Of a stretch of 34,271 nt of DNA, positions 5,799 through 32,628 are shown one piece after another. The notes below the pieces were generated by a model, which made no database searches, was not told where the DNA came from, and saw nothing but the letters and a program-made list of their open reading frames with translations. The DNA comes from Actinomycetes bacterium (GTDB lineage: Bacteria; Actinomycetota; Thermoleophilia; Solirubrobacterales; Solirubrobacteraceae): assembly GCA_021851525.1 (NCBI GenBank), contig JAJZDA010000013.1, forward strand, positions 1 through 34,271. The letters are read 5' to 3'. The number at the start of each line of letters is the position of its first letter. Within the stretch, counting starts at the first letter, position 1. The translations under genes were made by a program, and so were the position numbers.

Positions 5799-6101
5799 AT
5801 GGTTGCGATGCTCGAACGGGAAACGGTGGATCACGTCGCGCGGCTGGCGCGCCTGGCGCTCAGCGACGCGGAGACCGACGTGATGGCGGTTGAGCTCTCG
5901 AAGATCCTCGACCACATCGAGGCGATCAGGACGCTCGACCTGGACGGGGTCGAGCCGACCTCGCACGTGATCGACGTGGTCAACGCGCTGCGGGCGGACG
6001 TGCCGCACCATTCGCTGCCGCGTGAGCTGGCGCTCGCCTCGGCGCCGGATCCCGTGGACGGCGGCTTCGGCGTGCCCAGCCCCGGTGCCTCCGCGCAGTG
6101 A
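5799..6101 (+). CDS. gatC: Asp-tRNA(Asn)/Glu-tRNA(Gln) amidotransferase subunit C
   Basis: GatC is the small scaffold subunit that wraps around GatA and stabilises the GatCAB complex. The 100-residue protein shows the family opening TVDHVARLARLALSDAE, the central ILDHIEAIRTLDLDGVEPTSH, and LRADVP before the short C-terminal tail. ATG 5799 gives MVAMLERE; the ATG at 5808 is an equally good start. It abuts the preceding stop and overlaps gatA by four bases, so the three subunits are made in a coupled way. Confidence 0.94.
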   Translation: MVAMLERETVDHVARLARLALSDAETDVMAVELSKILDHIEAIRTLDLDGVEPTSHVIDVVNALRADVPHHSLPRELALASAPDPVDGGFGVPSPGASAQ

Positions 6102-9077: not shown

Positions 9078-9168
9078 GTCAAAACTGAAAAACGCCGAAC
9101 GGTCACCTGCAATGACTTGTTGCAAGATGGTTGCAGGACTGGACGAACATCGCGGCATGGTTTACCGT

Positions 9169-9192
9169 CAACTTGCAGGGCAACTTGCAGGG
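9169..9192. repeat. Tandem 12-bp direct repeat CAACTTGCAGGG
   Basis: Two perfect adjacent copies of CAACTTGCAGGG lie about 70 bp upstream of the GTG at 9263. Related TTGCA or TGCAA words recur just upstream around 9109-9138 (CCTGCAATG, TTGCAAG, TTGCAGG). A cluster of repeated words in a 280-bp non-coding leader is typical of regulator binding, but no factor can be named. Confidence 0.5.
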
Positions 9193-9193
9193 A

Positions 9194-9220
9194 CGTACGG
9201 GACCGGATGCGTACGACCGG
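9194..9220. repeat. Interleaved repeats CGTACG and GACCGG
   Basis: CGTACG occurs at 9194-9199 and 9210-9215 (16 bp apart), and GACCGG at 9201-9206 and 9215-9220. They directly follow the tandem 12-mer, about 45 bp before the start codon. They could be a second binding site in the same control region; chance cannot be excluded for six-base words. Confidence 0.3.
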
Positions 9221-9248
9221 AACCGAACAGGCACTAATGGATTAAGCC

Positions 9249-9255
9249 AGGGGGA
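9249..9255 (+). promoter_or_regulatory. Ribosome binding site fixing the start at 9263
   Basis: AGGGGGA lies seven bases before GTG 9263. It selects this start over the in-frame TTG at 9131, whose extension would translate the repeat-containing leader. Confidence 0.75.
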
Positions 9256-9262
9256 ATGTCAA

Positions 9263-11308
9263 GTGCGCGCTCTCGTCACGGGTGGGGCAGGTTTCATAGG
9301 TTCTCACATCGTCCGGCGTCTGCTTGGCGCCGGATATGAGGTCAGGGTCGTCGATAACCTCGCGACCGGCAGGCTCTCGAACCTCGAGGACGTCTTTGAG
9401 GACGTGGAGCTCTTTGAGGTCGACATCCGCGACGCGGAGGGCCTCAGCCGCGCGATGGTCGGCTGCGACGCCGTCTTCCACCTCGCCGCGCTGCCGTCGG
9501 TGCCGCGCTCCATCGCCGATCCGGCCGCCAGCCACGACGTCAACGCCACCGGCACGCTCAACGTCCTGATCGCGGCGCGCGACGCGGGCGCCAGCCGCGT
9601 CGTGTTCGCCTCGTCCTCCTCGATCTACGGCGCCGCGCGTGAGCTGCCCAAGCGCGAGGACATGCGCCCGCTGCCGATCTCACCGTATGCCGTCTCCAAG
9701 CTCGCGGCCGAGAGCTACGGGCGCAGCTTCCATGAGATCTACGGTCTGGAGACCGTCGCGCTGCGCTACTTCAACGTCTTTGGCCCGCGCCAGAATCCGC
9801 GCTCGGAGTACGCCGCGGTGATCCCGAAGTTCATCTGGGCCTTCCGTCACAACCAGGCGCCGATGATCAACGGCGACGGCGAGCAGTCACGTGACTTCAC
9901 CTACGTGGAGAACGTGGTGAACGCCAACATGGCGGCGATGAAAGCCCCCGGGATTGGGGGACGGGTCTACAACATCGCCTGCGGCCACGGGATCACGCTG
10001 AATGAGATCGCCTCGCGCCTGCAGGCCCAGATCGGGGCGACCGTCGACGCGGTGCATGGGCCCGATCGGGCCGGTGACGTGCGCCATTCGATGGCCGACA
10101 TCTCCCAGGCGCGCGCCGACCTCGGGTATGAGCCGAGCGTCTCGCTCGAGGAGGGCCTGAAGCGCACCGTTGAGCACTTCGACGTTGAGACCGAGGGTGA
10201 GCCGGCCGAGGAGCTCCTGCAGTCCGGGCGTCCCGCGGTGCGCAGCTTCGCGCTGCAGTCCGCGCCCGGCGCATCCGCTGCACCGGCCGGCGCGAAGCTG
10301 CTGATCACCGGTGGCGCCGGATTCATCGGCTCACATCTGGTGGAGGCGCTGGTCAAGCGCGGCCGCGGTGAGCAGATCGTCGTGCTAGACGATCTGTCGA
10401 CCGGCAGCATCGAGAACATCGGTCACCTGCTGGACGGGGATCAGGTGCGCTTCGTGCGCGGCTCCGTGAACGACTCCGATCTGGTCGACGAGCTGATGCG
10501 CGGCGCCAGCAAGTGCGTGCACCTGGCCTCCGCCGTGGGCGTGCAGATGATCGTCAATGAGCCGCTGGACACGCTGATGCGCAGCGTGCGCGGGTCAAAC
10601 GTGGTGATGCACTCGGCGACGCGCAACGGTGTGCACGTGCTCTTCAGCTCGACCTCCGAGGTCTACGGCAAGCAGAGCCACAACGCGCTCACCGAGGAGG
10701 ACGACCTGATCTTCGGCTCGCCCGCCAAGGGCCGCTGGTCCTACGCCATCGCCAAGACCTTCGGCGAGGCGCTGCTGCACGGATATCACCGCCAGCGTGG
10801 CTCAGAGGCCACTGTGGTGCGCCTCTTCAACACCGTCGGCCCGCGCCAGACCGGCACCTACGGGATGGTGCTGCCGCGCTTCGTGCGCCAGGCGCTGGCC
10901 GGTGAGGACCTGACCGTCTACGGCGACGGTGGCCAGACGCGCTGCTTCACGCACGTGGGGGACACGGTCGCGGCGCTGCTGGCGCTGCTTGACAGCGAGC
11001 ATTCCGCCGGGCGGACGTTCAACATCGGCAACGGCGAGGCGATCTCCGTGCTGGATCTGGCGCGGCGCGTGATCGAGCGCAGCGAGAGCAGCTCCGGCGT
11101 GGTGCTGGTCCCGTATGCGCAGGCTTACGGCGACGGCTTTGAGGAGCTCGGCACCAGGCGCCCGGACACCGGCGCGCTGCAGGAGCTCACGGGCTGGAAG
11201 GTGCGCTTCACGGTCAACGACGCAATTGACGACGTGATTGCGCATGAGCGCGCGCGGCTGGAGGCCGATCTCCAGCTGCAGCGGTTCGGGAACCAGAGCG
11301 AGAGCTGA
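9263..11308 (+). CDS. Double SDR fusion: two NAD-dependent sugar epimerase/dehydratase domains
   Basis: The 681-residue protein contains two complete extended short-chain dehydrogenase/reductase domains, each normally a separate ~310-residue enzyme. Domain 1 (1-308) has GGAGFIGS (7-14), SSSIYG, catalytic Y142xxxK146 and RYFNVFGPRQNP, resembling UDP-sugar 4-epimerases. A linker (about 310-343) follows. Domain 2 (344-670) has a second GGAGFIGS (350-357), SSTSEVYG, Y494xxxK498 and RLFNTVGPRQTGTYGMV, resembling UDP-glucuronate decarboxylase-like enzymes. Both active sites look intact, so the product may carry out two steps on a nucleotide sugar. The WecA-like gene begins one base after its stop, tying it to glycan initiation. 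Exact substrates cannot be read from sequence. Confidence 0.9.
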   Translation: MRALVTGGAGFIGSHIVRRLLGAGYEVRVVDNLATGRLSNLEDVFEDVELFEVDIRDAEGLSRAMVGCDAVFHLAALPSVPRSIADPAASHDVNATGTLNVLIAARDAGASRVVFASSSSIYGAARELPKREDMRPLPISPYAVSKLAAESYGRSFHEIYGLETVALRYFNVFGPRQNPRSEYAAVIPKFIWAFRHNQAPMINGDGEQSRDFTYVENVVNANMAAMKAPGIGGRVYNIACGHGITLNEIASRLQAQIGATVDAVHGPDRAGDVRHSMADISQARADLGYEPSVSLEEGLKRTVEHFDVETEGEPAEELLQSGRPAVRSFALQSAPGASAAPAGAKLLITGGAGFIGSHLVEALVKRGRGEQIVVLDDLSTGSIENIGHLLDGDQVRFVRGSVNDSDLVDELMRGASKCVHLASAVGVQMIVNEPLDTLMRSVRGSNVVMHSATRNGVHVLFSSTSEVYGKQSHNALTEEDDLIFGSPAKGRWSYAIAKTFGEALLHGYHRQRGSEATVVRLFNTVGPRQTGTYGMVLPRFVRQALAGEDLTVYGDGGQTRCFTHVGDTVAALLALLDSEHSAGRTFNIGNGEAISVLDLARRVIERSESSSGVVLVPYAQAYGDGFEELGTRRPDTGALQELTGWKVRFTVNDAIDDVIAHERARLEADLQLQRFGNQSES

Positions 11309-11309
11309 G

Positions 11310-12383
11310 ATGCATCCCGCCGCGGCTTTCGCGCTCGCGCTGGCGGCCACATTCCTGTTGACGCCGGTGGCGATTCGCGTCGCCCGCCGAACCCACTTCT
11401 TCGATCTCCCCGCCGGTTACAAGGGCCATCGCAGCCCGACGCCGTATCTCGGTGGCTCGGCGATCGTGCTGGGGCTGCTGTTCGCGGTGCTGGTCGCCGG
11501 CGGCACGCACTCCCGTTACACGCCGATCCTGATCTGCGCGGCCGCGGTCTGGGTGCTCGGCACGATCGATGACCGCGTGAACCTGCCGATCCTGGCGCGG
11601 GTCGCCGTGGAGGTTGGCGTTGGGGTCACGCTCGCCGCCACCGGCCTGGGCTGGAACGTCTTTCACCAGGGGCTGGCAGACGGCGCGCTCAGCGTGTTCT
11701 GGATGGTCGGCGTGATGAACGCCTTCAACCTGATGGACAACATGGACGGAGCCTCCGCCACGACGGCCGCGGTCTCCGCGCTTGGCGCGGGCACGCTCGC
11801 GCTGGTCTCGGGGCGCACCGGCCTGGCGCCGCTGTGCTTCGCCACGGCCGGCGCGTGCATCGGCTTCCTGCCGCGCAACCTCGCCAATCCGGCGAAGATC
11901 TTCATGGGCGACGGCGGCAGCCTGCCGGTCGGGATGCTGATCGCCGCGGTGGCGATGAGCGCCGTGAACCGCAGCTACCTGGGCCCCAGTGGGGTGGTGA
12001 TTGCCGCGCTGCTGGTGGGCCTGGTGATCTTCGACACGACGCTGGTCAGCGTCTCCCGTTCCCGTGCGGGGCGCTCGGTCTTCACCGGCGGTCGTGACCA
12101 CACCACGCATCGGCTCGCCGGCGTGGTGGGGACTCCGCGCCGGGTGGCGCTGACGCTGGCGGTGACGCAGCTGGCGCTGTGCGCCATCACGATCGCGATC
12201 TCCCAGGCGGGGCGCGGTTGGGTGCTGGTCTCCGGCGGTGTTGCGCTCGCGTTCGGGATCGTCGTGCTGTGGCAGTTCGAGACCGCCCCGTGGTTCCGGG
12301 TCGTGCGCCCCCCTTTGGCGCCGGGCGCCGCAGCCTCGGCGGAGAAGCCGAAGCGGTCGCTGCGACGGATGGCGTCGGTCTGA
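11310..12383 (+). CDS. Polyprenyl-phosphate sugar-1-P transferase (WecA/MraY family)
   Basis: Members transfer a HexNAc-1-phosphate from UDP-sugar to undecaprenyl or decaprenyl phosphate, the first membrane step of a glycan. The 357-residue protein is polytopic (about ten helices) and shows the family's cytosolic motifs: substrate loop GYKGHRSPTPYLGG (37-50), TIDD (85-88), NLMDNMDG (140-147), MGDGGS (199-204) and the histidine motif GRDHTTHRL (261-269). The ATG at 11310 immediately follows the SDR fusion stop. MraY is possible by family, but the context of nucleotide-sugar and glycosyltransferase genes favours an exopolysaccharide initiator. It converges with the glycoside hydrolase gene. Confidence 0.9.
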   Translation: MHPAAAFALALAATFLLTPVAIRVARRTHFFDLPAGYKGHRSPTPYLGGSAIVLGLLFAVLVAGGTHSRYTPILICAAAVWVLGTIDDRVNLPILARVAVEVGVGVTLAATGLGWNVFHQGLADGALSVFWMVGVMNAFNLMDNMDGASATTAAVSALGAGTLALVSGRTGLAPLCFATAGACIGFLPRNLANPAKIFMGDGGSLPVGMLIAAVAMSAVNRSYLGPSGVVIAALLVGLVIFDTTLVSVSRSRAGRSVFTGGRDHTTHRLAGVVGTPRRVALTLAVTQLALCAITIAISQAGRGWVLVSGGVALAFGIVVLWQFETAPWFRVVRPPLAPGAAASAEKPKRSLRRMASV

Positions 12384-12435: not shown

Positions 12436-13899
12436 TCAGTAGGTCCAGGGCAGGCTGGCGTTGATCGCGCCCCTGGCGTGCGAGCGGTGCAGCTCTATGG
12501 CGCGGAAGCTGCTGCCCCGCGTGGGCGCCGGGATCACTGCGCTGAAGACGCCGCCCGCGGCCGGGTGGAAGGTGCTCACGGTGCGCCAGCGGGAGCCGTG
12601 GCGCTGCTGCACAGCCACCGCCCCGCGCCGCGGCGCGACTCCCCAGATCTGGGCGTGGGTGCCGTCGGCGGCCACCACGAGGGGGAAGCTGTAGGCGGTG
12701 TATGACGGCTTGCGCTTGCCGTTGTAGAAGTAGATACCGGAGTAATAGGTGGTCGCGTAGGCCTTCCCCGGCTGGTCGCGGATCAGGTACCAGAGGACGG
12801 TGCTGACGCCCTCCTTCCAGAAGACGTAGAACGACTGCTCCAACCAGTGCGCCTGCTTGAGCAGCGGCAGGCCACCCTTGGGGTTGGGCGGGTTGGAGTC
12901 GTAGCTGAACTCCGTGACCCAGAGCGGCTTGGCGCGGGCGGGGAGCACGGTCCGCAGCCGCAGGCCGGCGTTCACGACCTTGGTGAGCTTCGCCAGGTCA
13001 GGCGCGGACGCGTCGTTGGTGTTGACGGCGGGCGTGGTCGGCGAGCCCACTTCGTAGGGGTCGGACGCCATCACATCGAAGTGCACCGGGTCATTGCAGA
13101 CCTTCTGCAACTTCGCGTTGAGGCAGAGCACGTTCTCCAGGAAGGTCACCGGCGCGACCCGGCCCAGCCGTGTGCCGGGCGGATCCCCGTATGACTCGAG
13201 CCCGCTGAAGATCACCACATCGCTGGCCACGGCGGACTTCACGCCGGCGTAGAAGGCGTTGAGCATCCCGCGGTAGATCGCGGCCCCGGTGTTGACCCAG
13301 GTGCCGTGCGAGCGTGTCCACTGCGGCCCCAGCTTGATCGAGAGGTTGGCCTCGGCCCAGTCCTGGTAGTAACGGACCCGGGGTAGCGCGTGACCGGGGT
13401 TCAGCGGATCCGCGTAGTGGCCGTCGTAACGCGTGGCCAGCGCCTTCATGAAGGCACGGAAGGCCTTGTCGTTGGGGACGTAGGCCTGGGTCAGCGCCGC
13501 CGCGCTGCTCGACGCCTCCGCCCATCGCGGCGCGTCGGTGACCATGAACATCGGCTGGACTCCGGCCTTGGCCAGCGTGCGCACGACGGTGTCCAAATCC
13601 GACCAGTTGCCGTAGGCCGCGTTTGCGGGGTTGGCGGCGTTGGTCCCGACCGCCGGCGCGTGCGTCTCATACCCGGTCCAGTCGACCTCCACCTCCGCAA
13701 TCCGCGCCCCCGACGCATGAACGTTGCGAGCCCACTGCACCGTGGTCTGAGCCGGGTTGTTCGGGTAGATCCAGACGTCGTCCACGAAGCCACGCGTGAA
13801 CGTCGCCGCGCTGGCGTTGCCGGCGATGAGGACGACTCCCGCGACTGAAGCTAAACGCGCAGACCTAACCAGCCAACGCCACCGTGCCGAAAATGCCAT
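12436..13899 (-). CDS. Secreted glycoside hydrolase, clan-A TIM barrel
   Basis: This 487-residue protein starts at ATG 13899 with a signal peptide: basic MAFSARWRWLVRSAR, a hydrophobic core, and likely cleavage after NASA (about residue 31). The body resembles GH39/GH5-like retaining hydrolases. E183 (YYQDWAEANL) fits the acid/base position at the end of strand 4 and E330 (LWVTEFSYDS) fits the nucleophile. An FDVMASDPYEVG segment lies between them. A beta-rich C-terminal segment (about 405-487) may be a small accessory domain. It probably trims, degrades or remodels the polysaccharide made by this locus. The upstream extension to 14016 is rejected because it precedes the signal peptide. The precise GH family is not certain. 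Confidence 0.8.
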   Translation of the reverse strand: MAFSARWRWLVRSARLASVAGVVLIAGNASAATFTRGFVDDVWIYPNNPAQTTVQWARNVHASGARIAEVEVDWTGYETHAPAVGTNAANPANAAYGNWSDLDTVVRTLAKAGVQPMFMVTDAPRWAEASSSAAALTQAYVPNDKAFRAFMKALATRYDGHYADPLNPGHALPRVRYYQDWAEANLSIKLGPQWTRSHGTWVNTGAAIYRGMLNAFYAGVKSAVASDVVIFSGLESYGDPPGTRLGRVAPVTFLENVLCLNAKLQKVCNDPVHFDVMASDPYEVGSPTTPAVNTNDASAPDLAKLTKVVNAGLRLRTVLPARAKPLWVTEFSYDSNPPNPKGGLPLLKQAHWLEQSFYVFWKEGVSTVLWYLIRDQPGKAYATTYYSGIYFYNGKRKPSYTAYSFPLVVAADGTHAQIWGVAPRRGAVAVQQRHGSRWRTVSTFHPAAGGVFSAVIPAPTRGSSFRAIELHRSHARGAINASLPWTY

Positions 13900-13978
13900 C
13901 AGGCGAGGATAGTCGGGAAGGAAGACGGGTCCGTGGCTGTGGGCCGCGACACCGAGAGACGCGCCCGGCGCTAATCGA

Positions 13979-14009
13979 CAACAGAACCACTGAGCGGCAA
14001 CAGAACCAC
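13979..14009. repeat. Direct repeat CAACAGAACCAC x2 upstream of the hydrolase
   Basis: Two perfect 12-bp copies (13979-13990 and 13998-14009) are spaced 19 bp start to start, about 80-110 bp upstream of the hydrolase start. Nearly two helical turns apart, they would present on one face of DNA, as expected of an activator or repressor tandem site. Confidence 0.4.
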
Positions 14010-14029
14010 AGTTCAAGACGGCTGACCGA

Positions 14030-15082: not shown

Positions 15083-17014
15083 TCAGCCGAGCTGAGCAAG
15101 TTCCTCACCGTCCGACAGCTTTGGTGTCTTGGCCGGCAGCTTGTTCGTGGATACCGCAGAACGGTAATACGGGTTGCTTTGGAAGAGTTCGTCGACAGGG
15201 GCGAATGCCTCCAGCTTGCCCTGGACCACGACCATCACCCGGTCGCAGATATCAAGGGTTGAAAGCCGGTGAGCCACGATGAACAAGGTCAAGTGATCCT
15301 TGAGCCTGACGAGAGATTCTTGAATTGTCTGCTCAGCCAGCGGGTCCAACGCGCTTGTCGGCTCGTCCAGCACGAGCACCTCTGGGTTAGCAGCGAGTGC
15401 TCTCGCAAGGCAAATTCTCTGCTGCTGGCCACCGGAGATAGCGTCGGCGCGCGGACCAACCACCGTGCTGTATCCCGACGGCCAGCCGGAGATCTCGTCG
15501 TGAATCCCAGCAAGCTGCGCAGCACGAACCACAGACTCGTCTGATAGGTCCCGAAAGAAGCGGATGTTGTCGGCGACTGAGGCATGGAGCAGGCGCGGCT
15601 CTTGGGGTACGTACGCAAAGACGCGGTGCCAGTCGGATCTGGTGATGTCCAGGGCTGGCACACGATTCACCAGGTAGTCGCCGCTGTTCGGTGCTCGCAG
15701 CCCAAGCAGCAGTTGGACGAGCGTGGATTTCCCGGCTCCTGAGGGCCCCACTATTCCGATCGCCTCGCCGCGGGCGACCGTAAAGTCGACGCCGCTGAGC
15801 GCTGACCGGTTGCCTTCGTAGGCGAACGACACCTCCCGGAAGGCGATCTCATCGACCCGCTCAAGCGATTCTGCGCCCTCCGGGTGGGCACTGGCGCGGT
15901 ACCTTGTCGCGGCCTTCCGGACGCGCTCGACATACGGCTGCGACTGGCGCAGAGACTGGATCGATGACTGCACCTGCTGCCCATAGGCGCCGGAGCGCAC
16001 GAGCATGAGGACCACCACGCCAAGTTCGGCAAGATGGCCCGTGCCGACGGCGTGGAGCGCTGCCAGGGCCGCCAGCAGGACGAGATAGATGAAGGCCTGA
16101 TAGACGCCTGTGACGAGATTGCCCAGCCAGTTCGTCTGGAGGTTGGGGCCGCGAAAGTCAGCGACGAGGCGGTCTAGTACCGCGCGTTGACGCCCTTCGA
16201 CGCCGAAGATATGCGCCTCCTCTGCGAGGCGGACTGCCTCGTTGACTCCGCCTGCATACGCCATCCATCCTTGTGACAGCGCCTCCGCCCGACGGTGGCC
16301 CATGTTCGCCAACGGCCTCAGGAGGAACGAAACGCCGCCGACGATGACGATGATGCCGACGGCCGCGACAGGGCTGACAGCGACAGCCGATGCCACGAGC
16401 ACGCCGAAAGTGATGAGAGCAACCACGAACTGAGCAGCGACGGCGTAACCGAGCGTGGCCTGCGTTGTCTGATTAGTCAACAACTCCTGAAAATGACCTT
16501 CGCGGTCCTGCGACTGCACCGCCCAGGAAGCTTCTGAGAATGCGGCGAAGAGCTCACTGCGCAGGCGTGCTTGTGTCGTATCCGAGATCCTCGCCGGAAG
16601 GAACGAGATGGCCACTGCGAGGAGCAGTCTGACGAGCGCAAGCGCAATGCCGAGTTCTAAGAGCGAGCCAACACTTGCGTTGGCATGCAGCGGTCCGAGG
16701 CTCAGATGCTCGTGCGTGCGGTGGTCGGCGAGCATCAGCGCGGTCTGCGCGAGAATCGCAAGGACCGCAGCTTCAGCAAGGCCAGCGAGGACCGATGCTG
16801 CGCCCAGCGCAGCAACATGGCCTGGCATTCGCCTGATTAGGTCTACGACCTGCGCCTGGATGAACCGCGACGATCGCGCTCGGTTCCGTGCTGGTTCAAA
16901 GTTGATGGGCGGTGTGGAGTTCGAGATGGTGACCGTTCCCTCAGTCCAAGGTGCGGGCAAGTGCGGGTGTGGCAGCGCCGCAGGATCGCCCGCTTTCATA
17001 GTCGACAAGCTCAT
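15083..17014 (-). CDS. ABC exporter, fused permease and ATPase (MsbA type)
   Basis: This 643-residue half-transporter would work as a homodimer. Residues about 60-330 form a six-helix type-I exporter domain. The ATPase follows with Walker A GPSGAGKST near 420, signature SGGQQQR near 526, Walker B VLVLDEP near 542 and the H-loop AHRLST near 580. An AAAGG-like site (AAAGG, 6 bases before ATG 17014) supports this start. In this locus it is the best candidate for moving a lipid-linked glycan across the membrane, though related exporters also carry peptides or lipids. It sits between a methyltransferase and a glycosyltransferase gene, in a stretch of reduced GC. Confidence 0.9.
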   Translation of the reverse strand: MSLSTMKAGDPAALPHPHLPAPWTEGTVTISNSTPPINFEPARNRARSSRFIQAQVVDLIRRMPGHVAALGAASVLAGLAEAAVLAILAQTALMLADHRTHEHLSLGPLHANASVGSLLELGIALALVRLLLAVAISFLPARISDTTQARLRSELFAAFSEASWAVQSQDREGHFQELLTNQTTQATLGYAVAAQFVVALITFGVLVASAVAVSPVAAVGIIVIVGGVSFLLRPLANMGHRRAEALSQGWMAYAGGVNEAVRLAEEAHIFGVEGRQRAVLDRLVADFRGPNLQTNWLGNLVTGVYQAFIYLVLLAALAALHAVGTGHLAELGVVVLMLVRSGAYGQQVQSSIQSLRQSQPYVERVRKAATRYRASAHPEGAESLERVDEIAFREVSFAYEGNRSALSGVDFTVARGEAIGIVGPSGAGKSTLVQLLLGLRAPNSGDYLVNRVPALDITRSDWHRVFAYVPQEPRLLHASVADNIRFFRDLSDESVVRAAQLAGIHDEISGWPSGYSTVVGPRADAISGGQQQRICLARALAANPEVLVLDEPTSALDPLAEQTIQESLVRLKDHLTLFIVAHRLSTLDICDRVMVVVQGKLEAFAPVDELFQSNPYYRSAVSTNKLPAKTPKLSDGEELAQLG

Positions 17015-18229: not shown

Positions 18230-19462
18230 TTACCTTGCCCCGATCTCGTCCAGCAGGTCTGCGAGGTGAGCGGTCAGCCTCGCCCGGCTGAGGGCATCGC
18301 TGTCGCGAACAAAGCTCACGTCGCGGGCCTCCGTGATCGAGCGGACCGCTCCCGCGACATCTCCCGGGGGCACAACCTGGGTGCCGGCATGCGCGCTGAT
18401 CAAGGCCGCCGCGTCGGTGAACGGCTGGCCTACATAGATGATCGGCTTCTGAGTCGCCAAGTATTCAGATAGCTTTGCAACTACGTGGCCCCTCAGGACT
18501 GGATCTGCGTGCTTGGGACCAGCGACCAGCAGAACGCTGCACCTGAGCAGTTCATCGGCCGCTCGGTCATGTGCGAGGAAGCCCGTTTGCTCGACTAGAC
18601 CCGAGAGTCCCACATCAGCGATCTCGCGCAAGAGTCCAGGCTGAGGAGGGCCGATCAGCCTGATCGCGTCGAGCCGGCCTGAAGCACCAGAGTTGAAGAC
18701 GCGTACGGCCTCCCACATCGTCCGAAGGTCTTGTGTGCCTGGGTAGTAGGTCCCGAGATAGCCGAGCGTGAATCGACCATCCGCTTCGCTGGTAGTTGCA
18801 GGTACGCCGTCGTGGCCATTTCTGATGACGTGCACCTCTCGGCTCCATGCGGAGCCGAACATCGATGCCCAAGAGGGGGAGACGGTGACCAGCGCCGACG
18901 CCTCGCGGCCGATCTCAGCCTCGAGGCGTTGCGCCCGAGTGATCACGGGCGAGTCGGAGGGGAGCATCGCTGACCACGGATCACGAAATTCGGCAACCCA
19001 GGGGGTGCCGAGGCGTCGGTGGATTCTCCGTGCGATCAGGTGCGCCGTGATTGGGAACGAGGAGGAGAAGACCGCGTCGAACTCCCCTGCGTGGACCCTG
19101 CGCCGGGCGGAGAGGAGCGCCGGTGGCAGCCAGCCGATCTGCGCGTCCGGAAAATAAAGGTGGCGTCTTGCAAGTTCCTTGAGTCGTGCCCGCGCGCCCC
19201 TCACGGCTGCGGCCTCGGTGTCGCTGCCGCCGGCCCTCAGAAGCTGCTTGCCGGCCCGGCTCAGTTCAATGGACGCGGTCCTGAGAACGCGCTCCTCGGG
19301 GAACGTCAGGGTGTCATCCCGGAAATAGGCACCGTTACGCGGCGTCAGCACTGTCGGCTCCCAGCCGTAGGCCGGCAGGTGCTCAGCGAACCTGGCGATG
19401 CGCAGGCTGCCGATCCCGCCAAGCGGCGGGAAGTAGTACGCGACGATCAGGACACGCTTCAT
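18230..19462 (-). CDS. GT4-like glycosyltransferase
   Basis: The 410-residue protein begins MKRVLIVAYYFPPLGGIGS, the glycine-rich acceptor-domain opening of GT-B enzymes, with LPAYGWEPTVLTPRNG just after. AEFRDPWS (about 177-184) and VTVSPSW mark the hinge before the C-terminal nucleotide-sugar domain, which carries TLGYLGTYYPG and LSEYLATQKPIIYVG. This pattern matches glycosyltransferases of capsule and O-antigen loci. Its ATG overlaps the stop of the preceding GT4 gene, so it is coupled to it. Sugar specificity is unknown. Confidence 0.88.
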   Translation of the reverse strand: MKRVLIVAYYFPPLGGIGSLRIARFAEHLPAYGWEPTVLTPRNGAYFRDDTLTFPEERVLRTASIELSRAGKQLLRAGGSDTEAAAVRGARARLKELARRHLYFPDAQIGWLPPALLSARRRVHAGEFDAVFSSSFPITAHLIARRIHRRLGTPWVAEFRDPWSAMLPSDSPVITRAQRLEAEIGREASALVTVSPSWASMFGSAWSREVHVIRNGHDGVPATTSEADGRFTLGYLGTYYPGTQDLRTMWEAVRVFNSGASGRLDAIRLIGPPQPGLLREIADVGLSGLVEQTGFLAHDRAADELLRCSVLLVAGPKHADPVLRGHVVAKLSEYLATQKPIIYVGQPFTDAAALISAHAGTQVVPPGDVAGAVRSITEARDVSFVRDSDALSRARLTAHLADLLDEIGAR

Positions 19463-20628
19463 CCCGCCTCCAAGACCCGTTTGTAGAGGCTCAAAAGGTT
19501 CTCTCTGAACGCCTGACGCGTGAATCGGGCCTGGAACGCGGCCCGTCCGGCCGCTCCCATGGAACGGGCCTGATCTGGCGATCCCGCTAGCCGGTGCATG
19601 GCACGCGCAAGCGCCTCGACATCTCCGGCGCTGACCAGGAGTCCGGTCTGATCCGCCGTGACTATCTCCTCGGCAGGCCCGACGGTGCTCGTGATCACCG
19701 GGAGCCCGAAGGACATCGCCTCGACGTTGGTGAAGCCGAAGCCCTCTGCGTGGGTCGGCATCACGAAAGCGTCCGCCTCACGGAAGACCTGCTGGAGCCT
19801 GGGGCCGTCGACCCAGGTGAGGCGCTTGGCCACCCCTGCAGTGACCATGCTCGCCAGCAGGCTCGACGTCTTCGCTCTGCGTTGGGGCCCCACCCAGGAT
19901 CTGATGAGGAGATCCGGGTTGGGCTTGGACTCGTCCGAACCGACGATCAGCAGCCTCGCGTGCGGAAGCTCCGCGGCGATCTGGTGGAAGGCGTCCACCA
20001 CGTCATAGCCGCCCTTGCGCTCAAAGTCGCTGCCGACGAACAGGAAGGTGAAGGTCTCCCGTTCAATCCGCGCGGCGGCCGGCGGCTCGTCGAACCCAGG
20101 GGCTATCACCTCGATCTTTTCCGGGGCGACGCCCCAGCGGATGTTGACCTGGCGTGCCCACTCGGAGAACACGTACAACCGTGCGGCGTGCTCCAACGCC
20201 AACAGACGGTCACGTACGCCCAGAGCCCGGTAGAGACGCCTGGATCTGGAGAACGCACGCCGCATGCGCCCCTCATCCCACCCGAGGTAGTCGGTCAGGT
20301 AGACGGCAGCGGAGGAACCTTCACTCATCACCAACGGCGCGCCGCGCAATCCCCGAAGCCAGACCGGGTGGGCGTGCGCGTGAACGACGTCATAGCTGCG
20401 TCGCAGACGCAGCGCCCTGAAGCCCATGTCCGGATACGTTTGCGGACGCAGCAGCTTGTTGAGACCCACCTCGACGGGCAGCACGCAGGTGGCGCCTTGA
20501 GCCGACCGGTGAAAGTCGTCAGAGACGTCATACGCGACCCCCTCAGGCGGGTGTTCGTGCAGAGCACCCACGTAGACCCCCTCGCCGCCGTGGCCGCTAG
20601 GCCCGATCAATAGTACGTCGAGCGTCAT
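19459..20628 (-). CDS. GT4 glycosyltransferase
   Basis: This 389-residue GT-B enzyme has an N-terminal MTLDVLLIGPSGHGGEGVYV, a linker with VIAPGFDEPP, FTFLFVGSDFERKGG opening the donor domain, and the GT4 E-x7-E signature EGFGFTNVEAMSFGLPVI near residues 296-313. It overlaps both neighbours by four bases (methyltransferase upstream, GT4 downstream). It should retain donor configuration and add one residue to the growing repeat unit; the donor sugar cannot be told. Confidence 0.92.
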   Translation of the reverse strand: MTLDVLLIGPSGHGGEGVYVGALHEHPPEGVAYDVSDDFHRSAQGATCVLPVEVGLNKLLRPQTYPDMGFRALRLRRSYDVVHAHAHPVWLRGLRGAPLVMSEGSSAAVYLTDYLGWDEGRMRRAFSRSRRLYRALGVRDRLLALEHAARLYVFSEWARQVNIRWGVAPEKIEVIAPGFDEPPAAARIERETFTFLFVGSDFERKGGYDVVDAFHQIAAELPHARLLIVGSDESKPNPDLLIRSWVGPQRRAKTSSLLASMVTAGVAKRLTWVDGPRLQQVFREADAFVMPTHAEGFGFTNVEAMSFGLPVITSTVGPAEEIVTADQTGLLVSAGDVEALARAMHRLAGSPDQARSMGAAGRAAFQARFTRQAFRENLLSLYKRVLEAG

Positions 20629-21287
20629 TCTGGCTTGCGCGCCAGCGCGACGTACTGGTAGGCCAGCAGATCCGGCGCGACCCAGCGCCCGAGGGTAGCG
20701 TTGGACAGCCGGGTCGCCGCTGCCCCGATCCGGCCGATCTGAGACTGGTCGTCTATCAGACGCAGGTTCCGGTGCAGGTGCTGGAGCTCAAGGCCGTTGC
20801 GGCGCAGGAACTCCTCCAGACTGCGACGTGTGAACACGCGCAGATGCGTGCGATCGCGCACCCCGGAGTCTGTATAGGCCCAGCGATCGAACACCAGTCG
20901 CAGCAGCACCGAGTAGAAACGCCAGTTGGGAACGCTCACTATCACCCGTCCAGACGGACGCAGCAGCGGCATGCAGCGCTGAAGGACAGCGTCCGGGTCG
21001 GCTACGTGCTCGAGAACGTCCGCGAACACCAGATAGTCGAAGCTCTCATCGTTGAAGGGGAGTTCGGCGTCGGTGGCGCTGCCCTCCACCAGCACATCGA
21101 GTCGCTCACGGGCTGCCACGGCTGCCGGCCCGTGGAGTTCGATCCCCGCCACGAAGGCCGCCCCATCGGCCTTGAGCGACGCGCCGAGGGCGCCCTCGCC
21201 ACACCCGATGTCGAGCACGCGAGCCCCCGGGGCACTTACCAGTGCTCGAATCTCCGGACGCGGCTCAGCGTAGTACCGCCCGCTCAC
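20625..21287 (-). CDS. Class I SAM-dependent methyltransferase
   Basis: The 220-residue protein contains the SAM loop VLDIGCGEGALG (24-35), an acidic GIELHGPAA strand end, and FDYLVFADVLEHVADPD, followed by a substrate-side segment (WRFYSVLLRLVFDRWAY). It matches Methyltransf_11-type enzymes found among glycosyltransferase genes. Overlaps of four bases on both sides place it between the AsnB-GT2 fusion and a GT4 gene in one translated unit. A glycan or lipid-linked acceptor is likely but unproven. Confidence 0.88.
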   Translation of the reverse strand: MSGRYYAEPRPEIRALVSAPGARVLDIGCGEGALGASLKADGAAFVAGIELHGPAAVAARERLDVLVEGSATDAELPFNDESFDYLVFADVLEHVADPDAVLQRCMPLLRPSGRVIVSVPNWRFYSVLLRLVFDRWAYTDSGVRDRTHLRVFTRRSLEEFLRRNGLELQHLHRNLRLIDDQSQIGRIGAAATRLSNATLGRWVAPDLLAYQYVALARKPE

Positions 21288-24172
21288 GTCCTGCCCCTCA
21301 CGATATCCAGGAGCGAGCGCAGCACCGCTCGCTGGAATGGGATCATTGCGCGAAAGCGCTCCCCGGACACGGCCGTTCCCCGTCCGCGCACGGTGTAGTA
21401 CCCCAGCCGCAGCGCGGTCCCGGTCGCGACGACGGCCACATAGGCTGCGGCCGCCAGTGGTCCGTCACGCCGTCGCACCAGCGAGACCTGCGCACCGAGT
21501 GAGAGTGTGATCCTGCGGCTGTTGCCGAGCAACTTCGTGGAGCTTGCATGGTCATGGTGCAGGATTGTCGCCTGGGGGTAGTAGCGCACGCGCCACGCCT
21601 GCGCCCAGATCCTCGAGCACCATTCGATGTCCTCGCCGTACATGAAGATGCTCTCATCAAAGCCTCCGGTGGTCTCGAAGATCTCGCGGCGCAGCAGCAT
21701 GAACGCTCCCGCGACCGCATCGACGTCGCGCTCCGTCGACTGATCCCAGTAGCCGCCGAGCAGCGCCTCTCGCCGTCGGGCGCCCAGAAACCGGCTGAGC
21801 CCGAGATTGTCGAGCAGCGCCAGCCGCAGACTCGCGAACCGGTAGGTGGTGTGCTGCATTGTGCCGTCCGGCGAGAGCAGCCGGCAGTGGGCTAGACCGA
21901 CCGTGGGGGCACGTTGGACGGCCGCGAGGAGCGTCGCGACGGACCCGTCGGTTAGCTCCGCGTCGCTGTTCAGGAGCAGCAGCCATTGGCCTCGAGCGAG
22001 CGTCATGCCCTGGTTGTTCGCACGTCCGAAGCCGACATTCTCCGCATTCGCGACCAGCTGAACCTCTGGGAATTCCTCCGCGATCATCGCCTGGCTTCCG
22101 TCGCTCGAGTCGTTATCGACGACTATCACCTCGTGGTTGACATCGCCCAGCCAACGGCGCACGGAACTCAGCGCCGCCCTGGTCAGCTCGAGCGTGTTCC
22201 AGTTGACGATCACCACTGAGAGTTGCGGGTTGTCCGGGCCGTCGTTGCGCGGGTCTGCGCGCGTTGAGATGGCTGCACCCGTGGTCACGGTCTGGCTTTC
22301 AGCGCTCGACCGCGGGGAGTCGAGCCAGTGCTGCGCCCACACCTCGAAGCTGTACATCATCATCGTCGCCGGGACGAGTGAGGTGTCTCCGTCGAGCGCG
22401 CGTCGGACGGTGCGCGTGGCGACGTCCGGGTCGAAGATCCCGCGGGCGCGGATCGCGTCCCGGCTGAGCGTTTCGGCTACGGCCTCACCCAGCTCCCCCC
22501 GCAGCCACGTCGCGAGCGGTGGTGAGAACCCACGCTTGATCCTGCTCGTGGGATCCTCCAGAGTGCTGTTCGCGATGTCATGCAGCAGCAGCTTGCCCTT
22601 GGTGAGCTGCATCTTGTGGTGCGCCGGCACCGCCATCGCCCGTTCCACGAGGTTGTGGTCCAGAAACGGCACGCGCAGCTCCAGAGAGTTCCACATCGAC
22701 ATGGCGTCGGCGCTGCGCAAGAGCTCGTTGGGCAGGTAGGTCTTCAGGTACAGGTAGAGCAGGCGGTTGAGCGGGTGCACGGCCCTGGCACGCGACAGAT
22801 GCTCAACCAGGTACTCAACGGGACCGCTCAGATTGACGCAGGCGGCAATCTCGGCGCTCAGCAGACCGGCGCGAAGCTCCGCTGTGGTCTGATGGAACAG
22901 CTCGTGCGTAACGCGCTGATCCGGTGGCATCGCTGAGAGCGTGGCCAGACGCTTGAGCCGATGCATTGGCGCCAACGCCGCGCCCGTGGTGAGAGGACCG
23001 CGAACTGCCGACGGAAGCTGATCGAGGCGTGCCAGCACGTTTGTGGCCACATGCGTCGGGTAGGCCGCGAAGAGCTCATCACCGCCGACGCCTGAGAGCG
23101 CAACGGTCACCCGCTCGCGAGCGAATCTCGAGATGAAGTGGGTCTGGATCAGCGACTGCCCGGGCTCGTCGTAGACCTCGACCAGGGATCTGAGCGCGGC
23201 AGCTCCCTGGCCCAGGTCCATCTCTGCTTCATGATGCTGCGTGCCGAGCCGCCGAGCTATCGCTCGCGCGGCGGGACGCTCGTCATGTGCCGGGTCGTCG
23301 AACCCGAGCGTGAAGGTCTCGAGCGCGCTGGTCTCGCGCGACGCGAATGTTGCCAGCAGTCGCGAGTCGACGCCCCCGGAGAGCAGCACCCCCAGCGGCA
23401 CGTCGCTAACCATCGTGCGGCGCACTGCCGACTCGAGCAACTCCGTGAACTCCTCCCGGTAGTGGGCGCGGCCCCGGTCGGCCTCCTCCGGCAACGCGCA
23501 GTCCCAGTACTGGTAGGACTCCACCCCGCGGGCCGAGACGGTCATGGCGTGCCCGGCCTCCAGCCGCCGGACCCCGCGGAAGAGCGTGTGCGGCTCAGGC
23601 ACGGCAAACGCCGAGAGGAAGTGCGGGAGCGCGGTGGGATCGAGTTCTGGAGAGAGCAGACCAGACGCCATCACCGCCTTGATCTCTGATCCGAAGATGA
23701 ACGTCCCTTCGTGCTCAGCGTAGACCAGCGGCTTGATCCCAAGGCGGTCACGCGCCAGGAAGAGACTGCGGTTGGCGTCGTCCCAGATCGCGAACGCCCA
23801 CATCCCGTTCAGGTGCTCGACCACGGATCTGCCCCACTGCGCGAACCCGCGGACCACAACCTCCGTGTCACAGCGTGTGCGAAACCGATGCCCGAGGCCT
23901 TCGAGGCGCGTCCTCAGGTCCGCGGTGTTGAACAGTTCCCCGTTGTAAACGATCGTGTACGCGCCGTCCCCGATCGTGATCGGCTGTGCGCCGCCCTGCA
24001 CGTCGATCACGGCGAGCCGCCGGTTGAGCAGTCCCACCGAAGGCGCGCCATCCGCGATGAAGAAGCCCTCCCCGTCAGGCCCTCGGTGGGCTATAGCGTT
24101 GCCCATCCGCTCGAGCCTCGGTCGCTCGATCGGGCGGCCGTCGACCGCATATATCCCGGCAATCCCGCACAT
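21284..24172 (-). CDS. Asparagine synthetase-type amidotransferase fused to GT2 glycosyltransferase
   Basis: This is a 962-residue fusion. Residues 1-200 are a class II glutamine amidotransferase with Cys2 nucleophile (MCGIAGIY), RGPDGEG (30-36) and NGELFN (77-82). Residues 210-618 are the ATP-dependent synthetase domain with SGGVDS (265-270), SGVGGDE (360-366) and IKRGFSPP near 545. A flexible linker (619-650) leads to a GT2 domain (651-962): LSVVIVNWN, VIVVDNDSSDGS, NVGFGRANNQG, LLLLNSDAEL and a GAFMLLRREIFE acceptor region, as in rhamnosyltransferase-like enzymes. The synthetase may amidate a sugar carboxylate that the GT2 half adds or modifies. Glu348 of E. coli AsnB corresponds to V362, so the acceptor is probably not aspartate. 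First gene of a four-gene overlapping series. Confidence 0.93.
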   Translation of the reverse strand: MCGIAGIYAVDGRPIERPRLERMGNAIAHRGPDGEGFFIADGAPSVGLLNRRLAVIDVQGGAQPITIGDGAYTIVYNGELFNTADLRTRLEGLGHRFRTRCDTEVVVRGFAQWGRSVVEHLNGMWAFAIWDDANRSLFLARDRLGIKPLVYAEHEGTFIFGSEIKAVMASGLLSPELDPTALPHFLSAFAVPEPHTLFRGVRRLEAGHAMTVSARGVESYQYWDCALPEEADRGRAHYREEFTELLESAVRRTMVSDVPLGVLLSGGVDSRLLATFASRETSALETFTLGFDDPAHDERPAARAIARRLGTQHHEAEMDLGQGAAALRSLVEVYDEPGQSLIQTHFISRFARERVTVALSGVGGDELFAAYPTHVATNVLARLDQLPSAVRGPLTTGAALAPMHRLKRLATLSAMPPDQRVTHELFHQTTAELRAGLLSAEIAACVNLSGPVEYLVEHLSRARAVHPLNRLLYLYLKTYLPNELLRSADAMSMWNSLELRVPFLDHNLVERAMAVPAHHKMQLTKGKLLLHDIANSTLEDPTSRIKRGFSPPLATWLRGELGEAVAETLSRDAIRARGIFDPDVATRTVRRALDGDTSLVPATMMMYSFEVWAQHWLDSPRSSAESQTVTTGAAISTRADPRNDGPDNPQLSVVIVNWNTLELTRAALSSVRRWLGDVNHEVIVVDNDSSDGSQAMIAEEFPEVQLVANAENVGFGRANNQGMTLARGQWLLLLNSDAELTDGSVATLLAAVQRAPTVGLAHCRLLSPDGTMQHTTYRFASLRLALLDNLGLSRFLGARRREALLGGYWDQSTERDVDAVAGAFMLLRREIFETTGGFDESIFMYGEDIEWCSRIWAQAWRVRYYPQATILHHDHASSTKLLGNSRRITLSLGAQVSLVRRRDGPLAAAAYVAVVATGTALRLGYYTVRGRGTAVSGERFRAMIPFQRAVLRSLLDIVRGRT

Positions 24173-24563: not shown

Positions 24564-26441
24564 GTGTGCGGCATCTGCGGGGTGGTTCAGGAGCGGCCCG
24601 ACGACGTGACGCGTGCGGTGGCTCTGCAGCTTGCGACGCAGCGTCACCGAGGGCCTGACGCCGAGGGGTGGTTTGACAGTGAGCGCGCGGCGGTCGCCCA
24701 GAACCGCCTGTCGATCATCGATCTGCAGACCGGCGACCCGCCGATGACCAACGAGGACGGGTCCGTAGGCGCGGTTCTCAACGGAGAGATCTACAACTTC
24801 CGCGCCATTCGGGAGGAGCTCACACGGTCGGGCCATGCGCTGAGCTCACAGGGCGACACAGAGGTGCTGGCACACCTCGCCGAGTCCAAGGATGCCGCTG
24901 CTGTGGCCCGTGACCTCGACGGGATGTTCGCGTTCGCCGTCTGGGACCGCCGGCGCGAGCGACTGATCATGGGCCGCGACCGGATGGGCAAGAAGCCGCT
25001 CTACTACTGGTACGGGAACGGGACGCTGGTCTTCGCCAGTGAGATCAAGGGGGTTCTGGCCCACCCGGCGGTTAGGCGGTCGCTGAACCCGCGTGCAATC
25101 TCGGCGTACCTGACCTTCGGCTACGTGCCCACCCCGGAGACCTTCTTCGAGGGGATCCTCAGCCTGCCTCCGGCGCATGTCCTCACGCACGTTCCCGGAT
25201 CTGAGCCGGTCATCGAGCGCTACTGGAAGCTTGCGGTGCCTGGAGTCGACGCCGGTGCGTACAGCCTCGACATAGGCATGGACGAGGCCGCGGCGGAGGT
25301 CAGGCGGCTGCTGGAGGCGGCGATCAGGCGCAGGCTCATTTCAGATGTGCCGCTGGGCGCGTTTCTGAGTGGCGGGATCGACTCCAGCGCGATTGTGGCG
25401 CTGATGGCGGGGGTCATGGGTGAGCCGGTCAAGACGTTCACGATCGGATTCGACGACCGTGACGGCTTCGATGAGCGTCCGTTCGCGCGGGCCGTCGCCG
25501 AGAGATTCGGCACCGAACACCATGAGGAGGTTGCACACCCCTCTGCGGTGGACCTGGTCGAGCGGCTCGTGCATCACCACGACCAGCCGTTTGGCGACTC
25601 CAGCGCGGTCCCCACTTTTCTGCTGAACGAGGTTGCCAAACGTCATGTGACGGTCGCCCTCTCGGGAGACGGGGGCGATGAGCTGTTCGCGGGCTACGAG
25701 CGCTTCGCCGCAGGGGTCGCCGTGGGGCGCGTGCTGCAGGCGCCGCCGGAGCTGCGCGCCGCCGGCCGGCGGCTGATCGATCTCCTGCCCGGCCCGGCGC
25801 TTCATGGCCGCGTCGGCCGCGCCCAGCGGTTCGCGGCCAAGGTGGAGGAGGGTATGCCCGACGCCTACCTCGAGTGGATCAGCTACGTGCCAGAGGAGTG
25901 GCGCGGGCGGCTGCTGTCCGACCCCGACGGCTGGGCCCGCGACGGCTACCGCGAGCGGTGGCAGAGGACGGCCACGGCCAAGACCCTCGACCGGCTGCTC
26001 GCGCTGAACATCGACACGTACCTGGTCGACGATCTGCTGGTGAAGATGGACCGCACGAGCATGGCCCACAGTCTGGAGGTGCGCTCGCCCTTCCTCGACA
26101 CCGAGCTGGTTGAGTTCGCGGCCCGCCTGCCGCCCGCGCTCAAGGCTCGCGGCCTGTCGCTGAAGCGAGTGCTGAAGCGTGCTGTCGCCGATCTGCTGCC
26201 CGCGGAGATCCTCGACCGGCCAAAGCGCGGCTTCGGGGTTCCCCTGGATCGCTGGTTCCGGGAGGACCTGGAGAGCTACACGGCGACGATGCTCGGCTCC
26301 GGCGCGCGTGTGAGGGAGCACCTTCGCGGCGATTCGCTCGACGCGCTGCTCAGCGAGCACCGTTCCAGTCGCAGCGCTCACGGGCATGCCCTGTGGACGC
26401 TCCTGACGCTCGAAGTCTTTCTCCGCAAACAGGCCTGGTGA
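24564..26441 (+). CDS. asnB: Asparagine synthase-type amidotransferase
   Basis: The GTG at 24564 is chosen because class II amidotransferases need cysteine right after the initiator methionine, giving MCGICGVV; starts at 24396 or 24552 would bury it. The 625-residue protein has RGPDAEG (29-35), NGEIYNF (73-79), GRDRMGKKPLYY (137-148), the synthetase P-loop SGGIDS (269-274), SGDGGDE (367-373), and KRGFGVPL near the C-terminus. It hydrolyses glutamine and transfers ammonia to an adenylated carboxylate. D369 replaces the usual Glu of true asparagine synthetases, a form common in polysaccharide-locus amidotransferases. It converges on a glycosyltransferase gene with a 3-bp gap. It could be general asparagine synthetase or a sugar amidase. 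Confidence 0.88.
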   Translation: MCGICGVVQERPDDVTRAVALQLATQRHRGPDAEGWFDSERAAVAQNRLSIIDLQTGDPPMTNEDGSVGAVLNGEIYNFRAIREELTRSGHALSSQGDTEVLAHLAESKDAAAVARDLDGMFAFAVWDRRRERLIMGRDRMGKKPLYYWYGNGTLVFASEIKGVLAHPAVRRSLNPRAISAYLTFGYVPTPETFFEGILSLPPAHVLTHVPGSEPVIERYWKLAVPGVDAGAYSLDIGMDEAAAEVRRLLEAAIRRRLISDVPLGAFLSGGIDSSAIVALMAGVMGEPVKTFTIGFDDRDGFDERPFARAVAERFGTEHHEEVAHPSAVDLVERLVHHHDQPFGDSSAVPTFLLNEVAKRHVTVALSGDGGDELFAGYERFAAGVAVGRVLQAPPELRAAGRRLIDLLPGPALHGRVGRAQRFAAKVEEGMPDAYLEWISYVPEEWRGRLLSDPDGWARDGYRERWQRTATAKTLDRLLALNIDTYLVDDLLVKMDRTSMAHSLEVRSPFLDTELVEFAARLPPALKARGLSLKRVLKRAVADLLPAEILDRPKRGFGVPLDRWFREDLESYTATMLGSGARVREHLRGDSLDALLSEHRSSRSAHGHALWTLLTLEVFLRKQAW

Positions 26442-31314: not shown

Positions 31315-32628
31315 TTAAATGGCGACCGGGACGGTCCCTGCCAGCTCCGTTTCAACCCCTGGCGCGGCGATCTCCGCCTCCGGCGGCAGCTTGCGCGTGC
31401 GGGCATGCTCGCGCAGCACCGCCATCGCGCAGATCCCGAGCGTGACAAGGTGCGTGCGGTAGCGGAAGCCGGTGCCGGCGTTGCCGACGGTCAGTGAATA
31501 GGCGACCATCTCCAGGAACATCGGGTATAGCAGCGGCCCGGCCCGCCCGAAGACGTCCCCGCGGTTGAGCCACATGAAGCGGATCAGCAGCACGATCACC
31601 ATGTACGCGTAGAGCGTCCCGAACGAGCCGAACATCTGGCTCGAGTCGTGCAGCTGCCAGGGGTAGGGCATCAGCATCAGCTCACGGATCTTGGTCGGCA
31701 GGCTGGAGATGATCGCGCCCCTGCTGGAGTAGTTGACCGACTCGAGCGCAAGGTTGGAGCCGTTCGCGCCACCGGTGCCGCCCTGGCCGATGCCCGCGGC
31801 GTTGGCCGCCTGCGAGGCCTGCAGGATCTTGAGGTTCTTGCCGCCGGTCGCCGCCAGCACCGTCGGTGCCGCCACAAAGCCGGCGACGATGATCGCGTAG
31901 ATGAACGGCAGCCCCTTGGAGCTGTAGCGCATGTTGCGGATCGAGGCGTGCAGCACCAGCAGCACCACGCCGCTGGCCATGAACCAGCCCGCATAGCCAC
32001 GCGTCTCCACCGCGATGAAGATGCCGATCGCGCAGATCAGGATCCCGCGGATGTCGAGCCGCTTCCAGAACCAGACGCCGCCGAACGCGACGATTCCGGC
32101 GGCGAGCTCCATGTTCGGCTCCTTGTGGATCTCGCTGTTGAAGAAGATGCTCGCCGGATCGAAGGCCAGCAGCCACATGGCCGTGCGGGAGGCGCGCGCG
32201 CCCCCGAGGTCGTATGCGGCCGCGACCATGAACACGAAGCCCAGCAGCGAGATCCCGATCTGCACCACCCGGATGGCGCTCACGTTCATGAACCCGACCT
32301 TGATCTCCAGCGCAAACAGCACGGTCATCAGCTGGTAGGGACCGTGCGGGAAGTACCCGTGCCCCAGCGGCTGCGCGGCCAGCTGCTGGGCGAACTGCAG
32401 GAACGTGGTCTCATCGCCACCGCGCAGCGAGGCGCCCAGCCCGGTGGCGTTGATCGCGATGATCGAGAGCAGGCGGATGCCGAGCGCCACCGCCAGCGGC
32501 AGCCCGATCTGCAGCTGCGGACGCCGACGCTGCAGCCGCTTGACAACAGCCAGCAGGATCACCGACACCGCGATGATCGTCAGCAGCAGCCCCTCGCTTG
32601 CGTTTGACGCAGGGATCGTCGGCAGCAT
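31315..32628 (-). CDS. Polytopic membrane protein, GT-C or polymerase-like
   Basis: The 437-residue protein has about ten hydrophobic helices. An extracytoplasmic loop after the second helix carries GGDETTFLQFAQQL, placing acidic residues where GT-C enzymes have their catalytic D/E. FFNSEIHKEPNMEL (about 160-173) resembles the K-E motif seen in GT39-like and Wzy-like proteins. A long variable loop rich in G and N lies around 275-300. In a locus that otherwise lacks a recognisable Wzy, it is a candidate repeat-unit polymerase or lipid-linked-sugar glycosyltransferase. It follows the kinase-like gene by 3 bp and precedes the Wzz/BY-kinase gene by 61 bp. Function is inferred from topology and context. 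Confidence 0.72.
   Translation of the reverse strand: MLPTIPASNASEGLLLTIIAVSVILLAVVKRLQRRRPQLQIGLPLAVALGIRLLSIIAINATGLGASLRGGDETTFLQFAQQLAAQPLGHGYFPHGPYQLMTVLFALEIKVGFMNVSAIRVVQIGISLLGFVFMVAAAYDLGGARASRTAMWLLAFDPASIFFNSEIHKEPNMELAAGIVAFGGVWFWKRLDIRGILICAIGIFIAVETRGYAGWFMASGVVLLVLHASIRNMRYSSKGLPFIYAIIVAGFVAAPTVLAATGGKNLKILQASQAANAAGIGQGGTGGANGSNLALESVNYSSRGAIISSLPTKIRELMLMPYPWQLHDSSQMFGSFGTLYAYMVIVLLIRFMWLNRGDVFGRAGPLLYPMFLEMVAYSLTVGNAGTGFRYRTHLVTLGICAMAVLREHARTRKLPPEAEIAAPGVETELAGTVPVAI

Follow-up and report, generated by a model that had tools for sequence, protein, structure and literature searches.

The gene described here lies on a contig of 34,271 nucleotides (JAJZDA010000013.1, our contig C13; hereafter the window) from an Actinomycetes bacterium of the Solirubrobacteraceae, whose 3.4 Mb genome assembly (GCA_021851525.1) comprises 267 contigs and is approximately 90% complete. 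It joins an amidotransferase of the asparagine synthetase (AsnB) type to a family 2 glycosyltransferase (GT2) in a single reading frame. This AsnB-GT2 architecture is conserved across independent genomes, as orthologous fusions in two congeneric species (G020 and G024) and as a differing fusion in two genomes of another genus of the family (G261 and G396). On balance, we favor the interpretation that the fused protein is a bifunctional enzyme of glycan assembly, which would place a primary amide on a sugar acid and transfer a sugar within one assembly step. Because related species keep the pair together, the fusion is probably a built-in amidate-and-attach step rather than a product of sequencing error.

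On the minus strand, positions 21284-24172 form one uninterrupted frame of 962 codons, from ATG to TGA, whereas the plus-strand reading contains many stops. The GC content by codon position is even along the whole frame, including the junction. The encoded protein begins with Met-Cys-Gly-Ile, and a Met-Cys start is the form that N-terminal nucleophile (Ntn) glutaminases need. Three Pfam domains score above their curated cutoffs: GATase_7 (residues 51-168, E = 5e-44), Asn_synthase (residues 242-613, E = 1.5e-78), and Glycos_transf_2 (residues 652-832, E = 2.7e-20). An AlphaFold2 model of the complete chain contains two ordered domains, with a mean predicted local distance difference test score (pLDDT) of 91.6 and a predicted template modeling score of 0.86. 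The latter value gives a hint that the domains pack against each other in a definite way, although nothing in the present argument is built on it. The sole stretch with a pLDDT below 50 (residues 622-639) matches the disordered linker that the original prediction, made from the DNA sequence, had placed at residues 619-650; its coordinates and its single 962-residue frame also hold, with the gene lying on the minus strand. A GTG triplet occurs at codon 629, and the GT2 half may also be translated separately from it.

The orthologous fusions in G020 (JAJZID010000001) and G024 are full length, free of internal stops, and 68 and 67% identical to the window protein, respectively. In each half, most nucleotide differences from these genes are third-position changes; both halves are under purifying selection. 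The linker, in contrast, is short, variable in length, and unconserved. These comparisons bear on the concern that a chimeric assembly or a sequencing error joined two genes. The fragmented state of the source assembly might invite such an error, but the same fusion, with no internal stop and with a linker of different length, is found in two independently assembled genomes. An erroneous origin of the frame is thereby ruled out for practical purposes, and the missed stop or frameshift at 22225-22315 that the original prediction had considered is opposed by the stop-free orthologs.

The amidotransferase half has the sequence characteristics of a class II (Ntn) glutamine amidotransferase of the AsnB type. 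Residues Cys1, Arg49, Asn74, Gly75, and Asp98 (Escherichia coli numbering) are kept in 134 of 134 aligned AsnB sequences, the window protein included. The PP-loop motif SGGVDS and the catalytic Lys (within KRGF) are likewise present, with Arg at the position of Ser240. In E. coli AsnB, Glu348 is part of the aspartate-activating site. The equivalent residue is absent from the fused protein, in which Val362 occupies the position, and from the G020 and G024 fusions, which carry Leu; most of the 134 aligned proteins have Asp, Gln, Glu, or His there. The original assertion that all domain hallmarks are intact consequently holds for the three Pfam domains and for those residues of the glutaminase and ATP sites that were checked; this position is the exception. 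Because the Glu348 equivalent is replaced by Val or Leu, the amidotransferase half is probably not an asparagine synthetase. The substrate region also contains an extra loop of 5-6 residues, a feature described for AsnB enzymes that do not act on aspartate (PMC8554201). The loop adjoins the Asp384/Arg387 region, where the alignment shifts by one residue, and Arg387 could therefore be retained.

Profile and structure comparisons place the amidotransferase half near enzymes with tasks other than asparagine synthesis. Its best NCBIfam model is TIGR03108 (eps_aminotran_1), at 500 bits and below the curated cutoff of 816.9; the generic asparagine synthase model TIGR01536 is passed (424 bits, cutoff 267) but ranks behind it. 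By both sequence and fold, the closest solved structure is TsnB9 (PDB 7YLZ), ahead of true asparagine synthetases. TsnB9 shares the AsnB fold and is deposited as a hydroxyamidotransferase, although the deposited chain lacks a glycosyltransferase domain. Members assigned to TIGR03108 include WbpS, WbqG, and PGN_1234, which act in uronamide formation. Deletion of PGN_1234 abolishes the uronamide, and it is not known at which point of the pathway WbpS acts, on the nucleotide sugar or afterwards (PMC7468200). Uronamide residues depend on genes of the WbpS type (PMC7468200, PMC6025236). Compared through the TIGR03108 model, these proteins resemble the fused protein in their two-domain amidotransferase organization and their surface-glycan loci. 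They differ in standing alone, whereas the window protein scores below the model cutoff, has Val at the Glu348 position, and continues into a C-terminal GT2 domain. A second AsnB-type gene in the window, asnB2, is divergent from the fused gene. It has the same domain pair and the same closest model (TIGR03108, 542 bits) but is unfused, only about 39% identical to the fused half, and has Asp at the Glu348 position. All four congeners compared keep asnB2 at 72-79% identity, even where the fusion is absent.

The most informative context comes from a congener, G006, which carries a free-standing ortholog of the GT2 half (64% identity) and in which a search for traces of the AsnB half gave none. 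Instead, genes of the HisH-like, AglZ/HisF2, and WbuX (N-acetyl sugar amidotransferase) families lie between the GT2 gene and asnB2 (L092:6243-8811), all three scoring above a curated cutoff. By family assignment, this trio corresponds to the known acetamidino-sugar amidotransferase set, in the slot where the AsnB half would be. Because an unrelated sugar amidotransferase takes its place next to this GT2, the AsnB half is probably sugar-directed, and this replacement is the strongest context evidence in support of that view. Both systems would be glutamine-fed amidotransferases of surface sugars, but the trio consists of three separate genes of other families and has an N-acetyl target; the WbpG/WbuX-type enzyme of the acetamidino pathway acts on an N-acetyl group, not on a carboxylate (PMC10607449). 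WbpS-like amidation of a sugar acid, as originally proposed, is thus the best, though still provisional, reading of the TIGR03108 match, the lost Glu348 equivalent, and the G006 trio.

The GT2 half has a predicted GT-A fold: it matches GT-A structures, PF00535 is above cutoff, and the Asp residues at positions D45, D96, and D207 of the glycosyltransferase alignment are invariant. The NCBIfam search returned no glycosyltransferase model above cutoff for this half, and its PDB structure matches are generic and uninformative on the donor sugar. Among four GT2 orthologs, only the G006 copy is free-standing, and its branching order relative to the fused ones is poorly resolved. The fusion may have been gained, or G006 may have lost the AsnB half.

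The whole fused protein served as query against approximately 770 genomes of the phylum, and 20 sites with long open frames were retrieved for inspection. Only two fusion types were seen; apart from the pair in genus g36, the long frames encode plain AsnB proteins. The g36 type, a protein of 937 residues in G261 and G396, shares the architecture and a glycan-locus setting with the window protein. Its GT2 half, however, can barely be aligned with that of the window protein, its Glu348 position holds Gln, and its AsnB half is not the nearest relative. An approximately unbiased test on the AsnB halves did not reject a single clade of all fused forms (p 0.55, with long branches). Because the AsnB tree permits one origin, the case for independent origins rests on the glycosyltransferase halves and the differing neighbors; from these, two origins seem likely. 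In polysaccharide or exosortase loci of Sphingomonas taxi, Ruegeria, and Alteromonas plasmids, an asnB gene and a GT2 gene lie side by side without being joined; the two are on opposite strands in Ruegeria, and the GT2 gene is upstream in Alteromonas. As a general operon pattern, AsnB followed by GT2 is unsupported: with a narrow GT2 profile, 0 of 94 AsnB genes of other bacteria had a GT2 gene directly downstream, and 11 had one directly upstream.

In the mechanism that we propose, the N-terminal half would hydrolyze glutamine and pass ammonia through an internal tunnel to the PP-loop site, where a carboxylate would be activated by ATP as an acyl-AMP and released as a primary amide. This carboxylate would most likely be C6 of a uronic-acid residue, as for WbpS-like enzymes, rather than aspartate. 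The genome has two UDP-sugar dehydrogenase genes (UDP-glucose-dehydrogenase-like and UDP-ManNAc-dehydrogenase-like), so uronic acids can be made. The C-terminal GT2 half would attach a sugar to a growing polyprenyl-diphosphate-linked oligosaccharide. Amidation and transfer would act on the same or neighboring residues, and the fusion would keep the steps together; we infer both the order of the steps and their coupling. Amidation on the lipid-linked intermediate is plausible, and the observations fit equally well with amidation of the nucleotide sugar ahead of transfer. A more specific and distinctly tentative version holds that a single intermediate passes from one active site to the other, that the sugar acid is amidated on the growing lipid-linked glycan at its addition or just before the next sugar, and that the architecture arose twice in one family because coupling was favored. 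Coupling would perhaps be favored because an unamidated residue may block extension, as suggested by a wbpS mutant of H. pullorum, which is discussed as having HexNAcA instead of HexNAcAN and in which glycan extension stops at that residue (PMC6025236).

Several observations weigh against a bifunctional amidate-and-transfer enzyme. The substrates of both halves are predicted, and the uronic-acid genes sit on other contigs, outside the locus. The AsnB half falls far short of the TIGR03108 cutoff; at one key position, it has neither the Asp found in asnB2 nor the Glu found in E. coli AsnB. Its substrate could therefore be another carboxylate, or its activity could be weak. In known systems, trios like that of G006 act on N-acetyl groups, which makes for a shared theme rather than a shared substrate. 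In addition, the lack of a common downstream GT2 among the 94 AsnB genes indicates that coupling is no general rule of the family.

The main rival explanation, which we regard as a serious but clearly less probable account, is a neutral fusion of neighboring genes in a tight operon, whose products would serve the same glycan pathway as independent enzymes without channeling. Operon neighbors here overlap by 4 bases, so read-through fusions arise easily, and the locus contains a second fusion, of epimerase domains, that is split and swapped in G001. The free-standing GT2 of G006 and the unconserved linker point in the same direction. A neutral event fits less readily with the persistence of the fusion over approximately 30% protein divergence in three species, or with the recurrence of the architecture elsewhere in the family, where the GT2 half is hardly alignable. 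The remaining alternatives concern the substrate. That the AsnB half amidates a non-sugar carboxylate, either in a peptide or amino acid decorating the glycan or, as a diaminopimelate (DAP)-type cell-wall carboxylate, on a lipid-linked precursor, is improbable: the GT2 fusion lies within an operon of methyltransferases and glycosyltransferases, and no peptide-ligase genes were found among the scanned neighbors. This alternative nonetheless draws on a pocket unlike those of both E. coli AsnB and asnB2, and on the amidation of meso-DAP by AsnB/LtsA-type enzymes in Gram-positives, Actinobacteria included (PMC8554201).

More doubtful still is a housekeeping asparagine synthetase fused to GT2 by chance. 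The replaced Glu348 equivalent, the glycan-operon setting, and the absence of this half in G006, which has sugar amidotransferase genes instead, all speak against it, as do the gatCAB genes of the window, which offer a tRNA-dependent route to asparagine. In its favor are the TIGR01536 match and the finding that the fused gene and asnB2, both in this locus, are the only AsnB-family matches found in the approximately 90% complete genome. Moreover, some non-classical AsnB enzymes complement an asparagine auxotroph (Bacillus subtilis, quoted in PMC8554201).

The neighboring operon of glycosyltransferases and methyltransferases (Table 1) supports the glycan-locus setting of the original prediction. 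The term O-antigen that it used is too specific for an actinomycete, and a surface-glycan or exopolysaccharide locus fits better. Gene content and order are largely conserved in G020 and G024. Past the second GT4-type gene lie a methyltransferase, an MsbA/PglK-like ABC transporter (a candidate for flipping the lipid-linked glycan), a GT92-like enzyme, a WecA-like transferase, and the fused sugar epimerases. The asnB2 side also carries more glycosyltransferases and a Wzz/tyrosine-kinase protein. The epimerase pair (9131-11308), the second gene fusion of the locus, is also one frame in G024 (L096:17231-19258), and in G001 (L098:1320-3385) its parts are separated and their order is reversed. Two long minus-strand frames in the glycan locus, at 12436-14016 and 31315-32628, have no Pfam match; the latter is 66-67% identical in G006 and G020. 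A protein resembling HprK-related kinases, below cutoff, is encoded at 32632-33444 on the minus strand and adjoins the Wzz/tyrosine-kinase gene.

Table 1. Positions of the fused gene, its domains, and related features (window coordinates unless a locus is named; SAM, S-adenosylmethionine; NDP, nucleoside diphosphate; ORF, open reading frame).
Feature	Position	Strand	Basis or remarks
Complete fused gene, 962 residues, AsnB-type amidotransferase + GT2	21284..24172	minus	ORF and Pfam; orthologous fusions in G020, G024
Glutaminase domain (Ntn, GATase_7), residues 1-168; Cys nucleophile after Met1; motifs RRLAVID, YNGE, RCDTE	23669..24172	minus	Pfam and alignment
Asn_synthase domain (PP-loop ATP pyrophosphatase), residues 242-613	22334..23449	minus	Pfam; SGGVDS 23363-23380; KRGF (Lys449 equivalent) 22526-22537
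LSGVGGDE; Val362 at E. coli AsnB Glu348 position, Leu in both orthologous fusions	23075..23098	minus	Alignment
Linker, residues 619-649	22226..22318	minus	Low model confidence 622-639; unconserved; 15 residues shorter in G020, G024
GT2 half, residues 650-962; VDND, NSDA (DxD-type metal site), GEDIEW (predicted base); hydrophobic C-terminal helices	21287..22225	minus	Pfam, alignment, structure match
SAM methyltransferase; start overlaps end of fused gene by 4 bases	20625..21287	minus	Pfam; syntenic in G020, G024
GT4 glycosyltransferase; 4-base overlap with SAM methyltransferase gene	19459..20628	minus	Pfam; syntenic in G006, G020, G024
GT4-type glycosyltransferase; 4-base overlap with preceding GT4 gene	18230..19462	minus	Pfam; syntenic in G020, G024
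ABC transporter with fused ATPase (MsbA/PglK-like)	15083..17014	minus	Profile matches, synteny
WecA-like polyprenyl-phosphate sugar-1-phosphate transferase (initiating enzyme)	11238..12383	plus	Profile matches
Two NDP-sugar epimerase/dehydratase domains (LegB/TviC-like + UDP-xylose-synthase-like), one frame	9131..11308	plus	Profile matches
asnB2, stand-alone AsnB-type amidotransferase	24564..26441	plus	Pfam; Asp at Glu348 position
gatCAB genes	5799-8982		
g36 AsnB-GT2 fusion	L112:3345-6158; also L113		Locus with Alg14-like, GT2, and methyltransferase genes

Both halves, WbpS-like enzymes, and the adjacency of asnB and GT2 genes are known already, whereas the fused architecture conserved in several species appears to be new; no described precedent for an AsnB-glycosyltransferase fusion was found in the literature searched, which did not extend to subscription papers. 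Fusion to one particular glycosyltransferase would name the partner step of amidation and make the order of the steps testable on a single protein. The exchange in G006 suggests, in turn, that the conserved trait may be the nitrogen-capping of the residue next to this GT2, achieved by differing chemistries.

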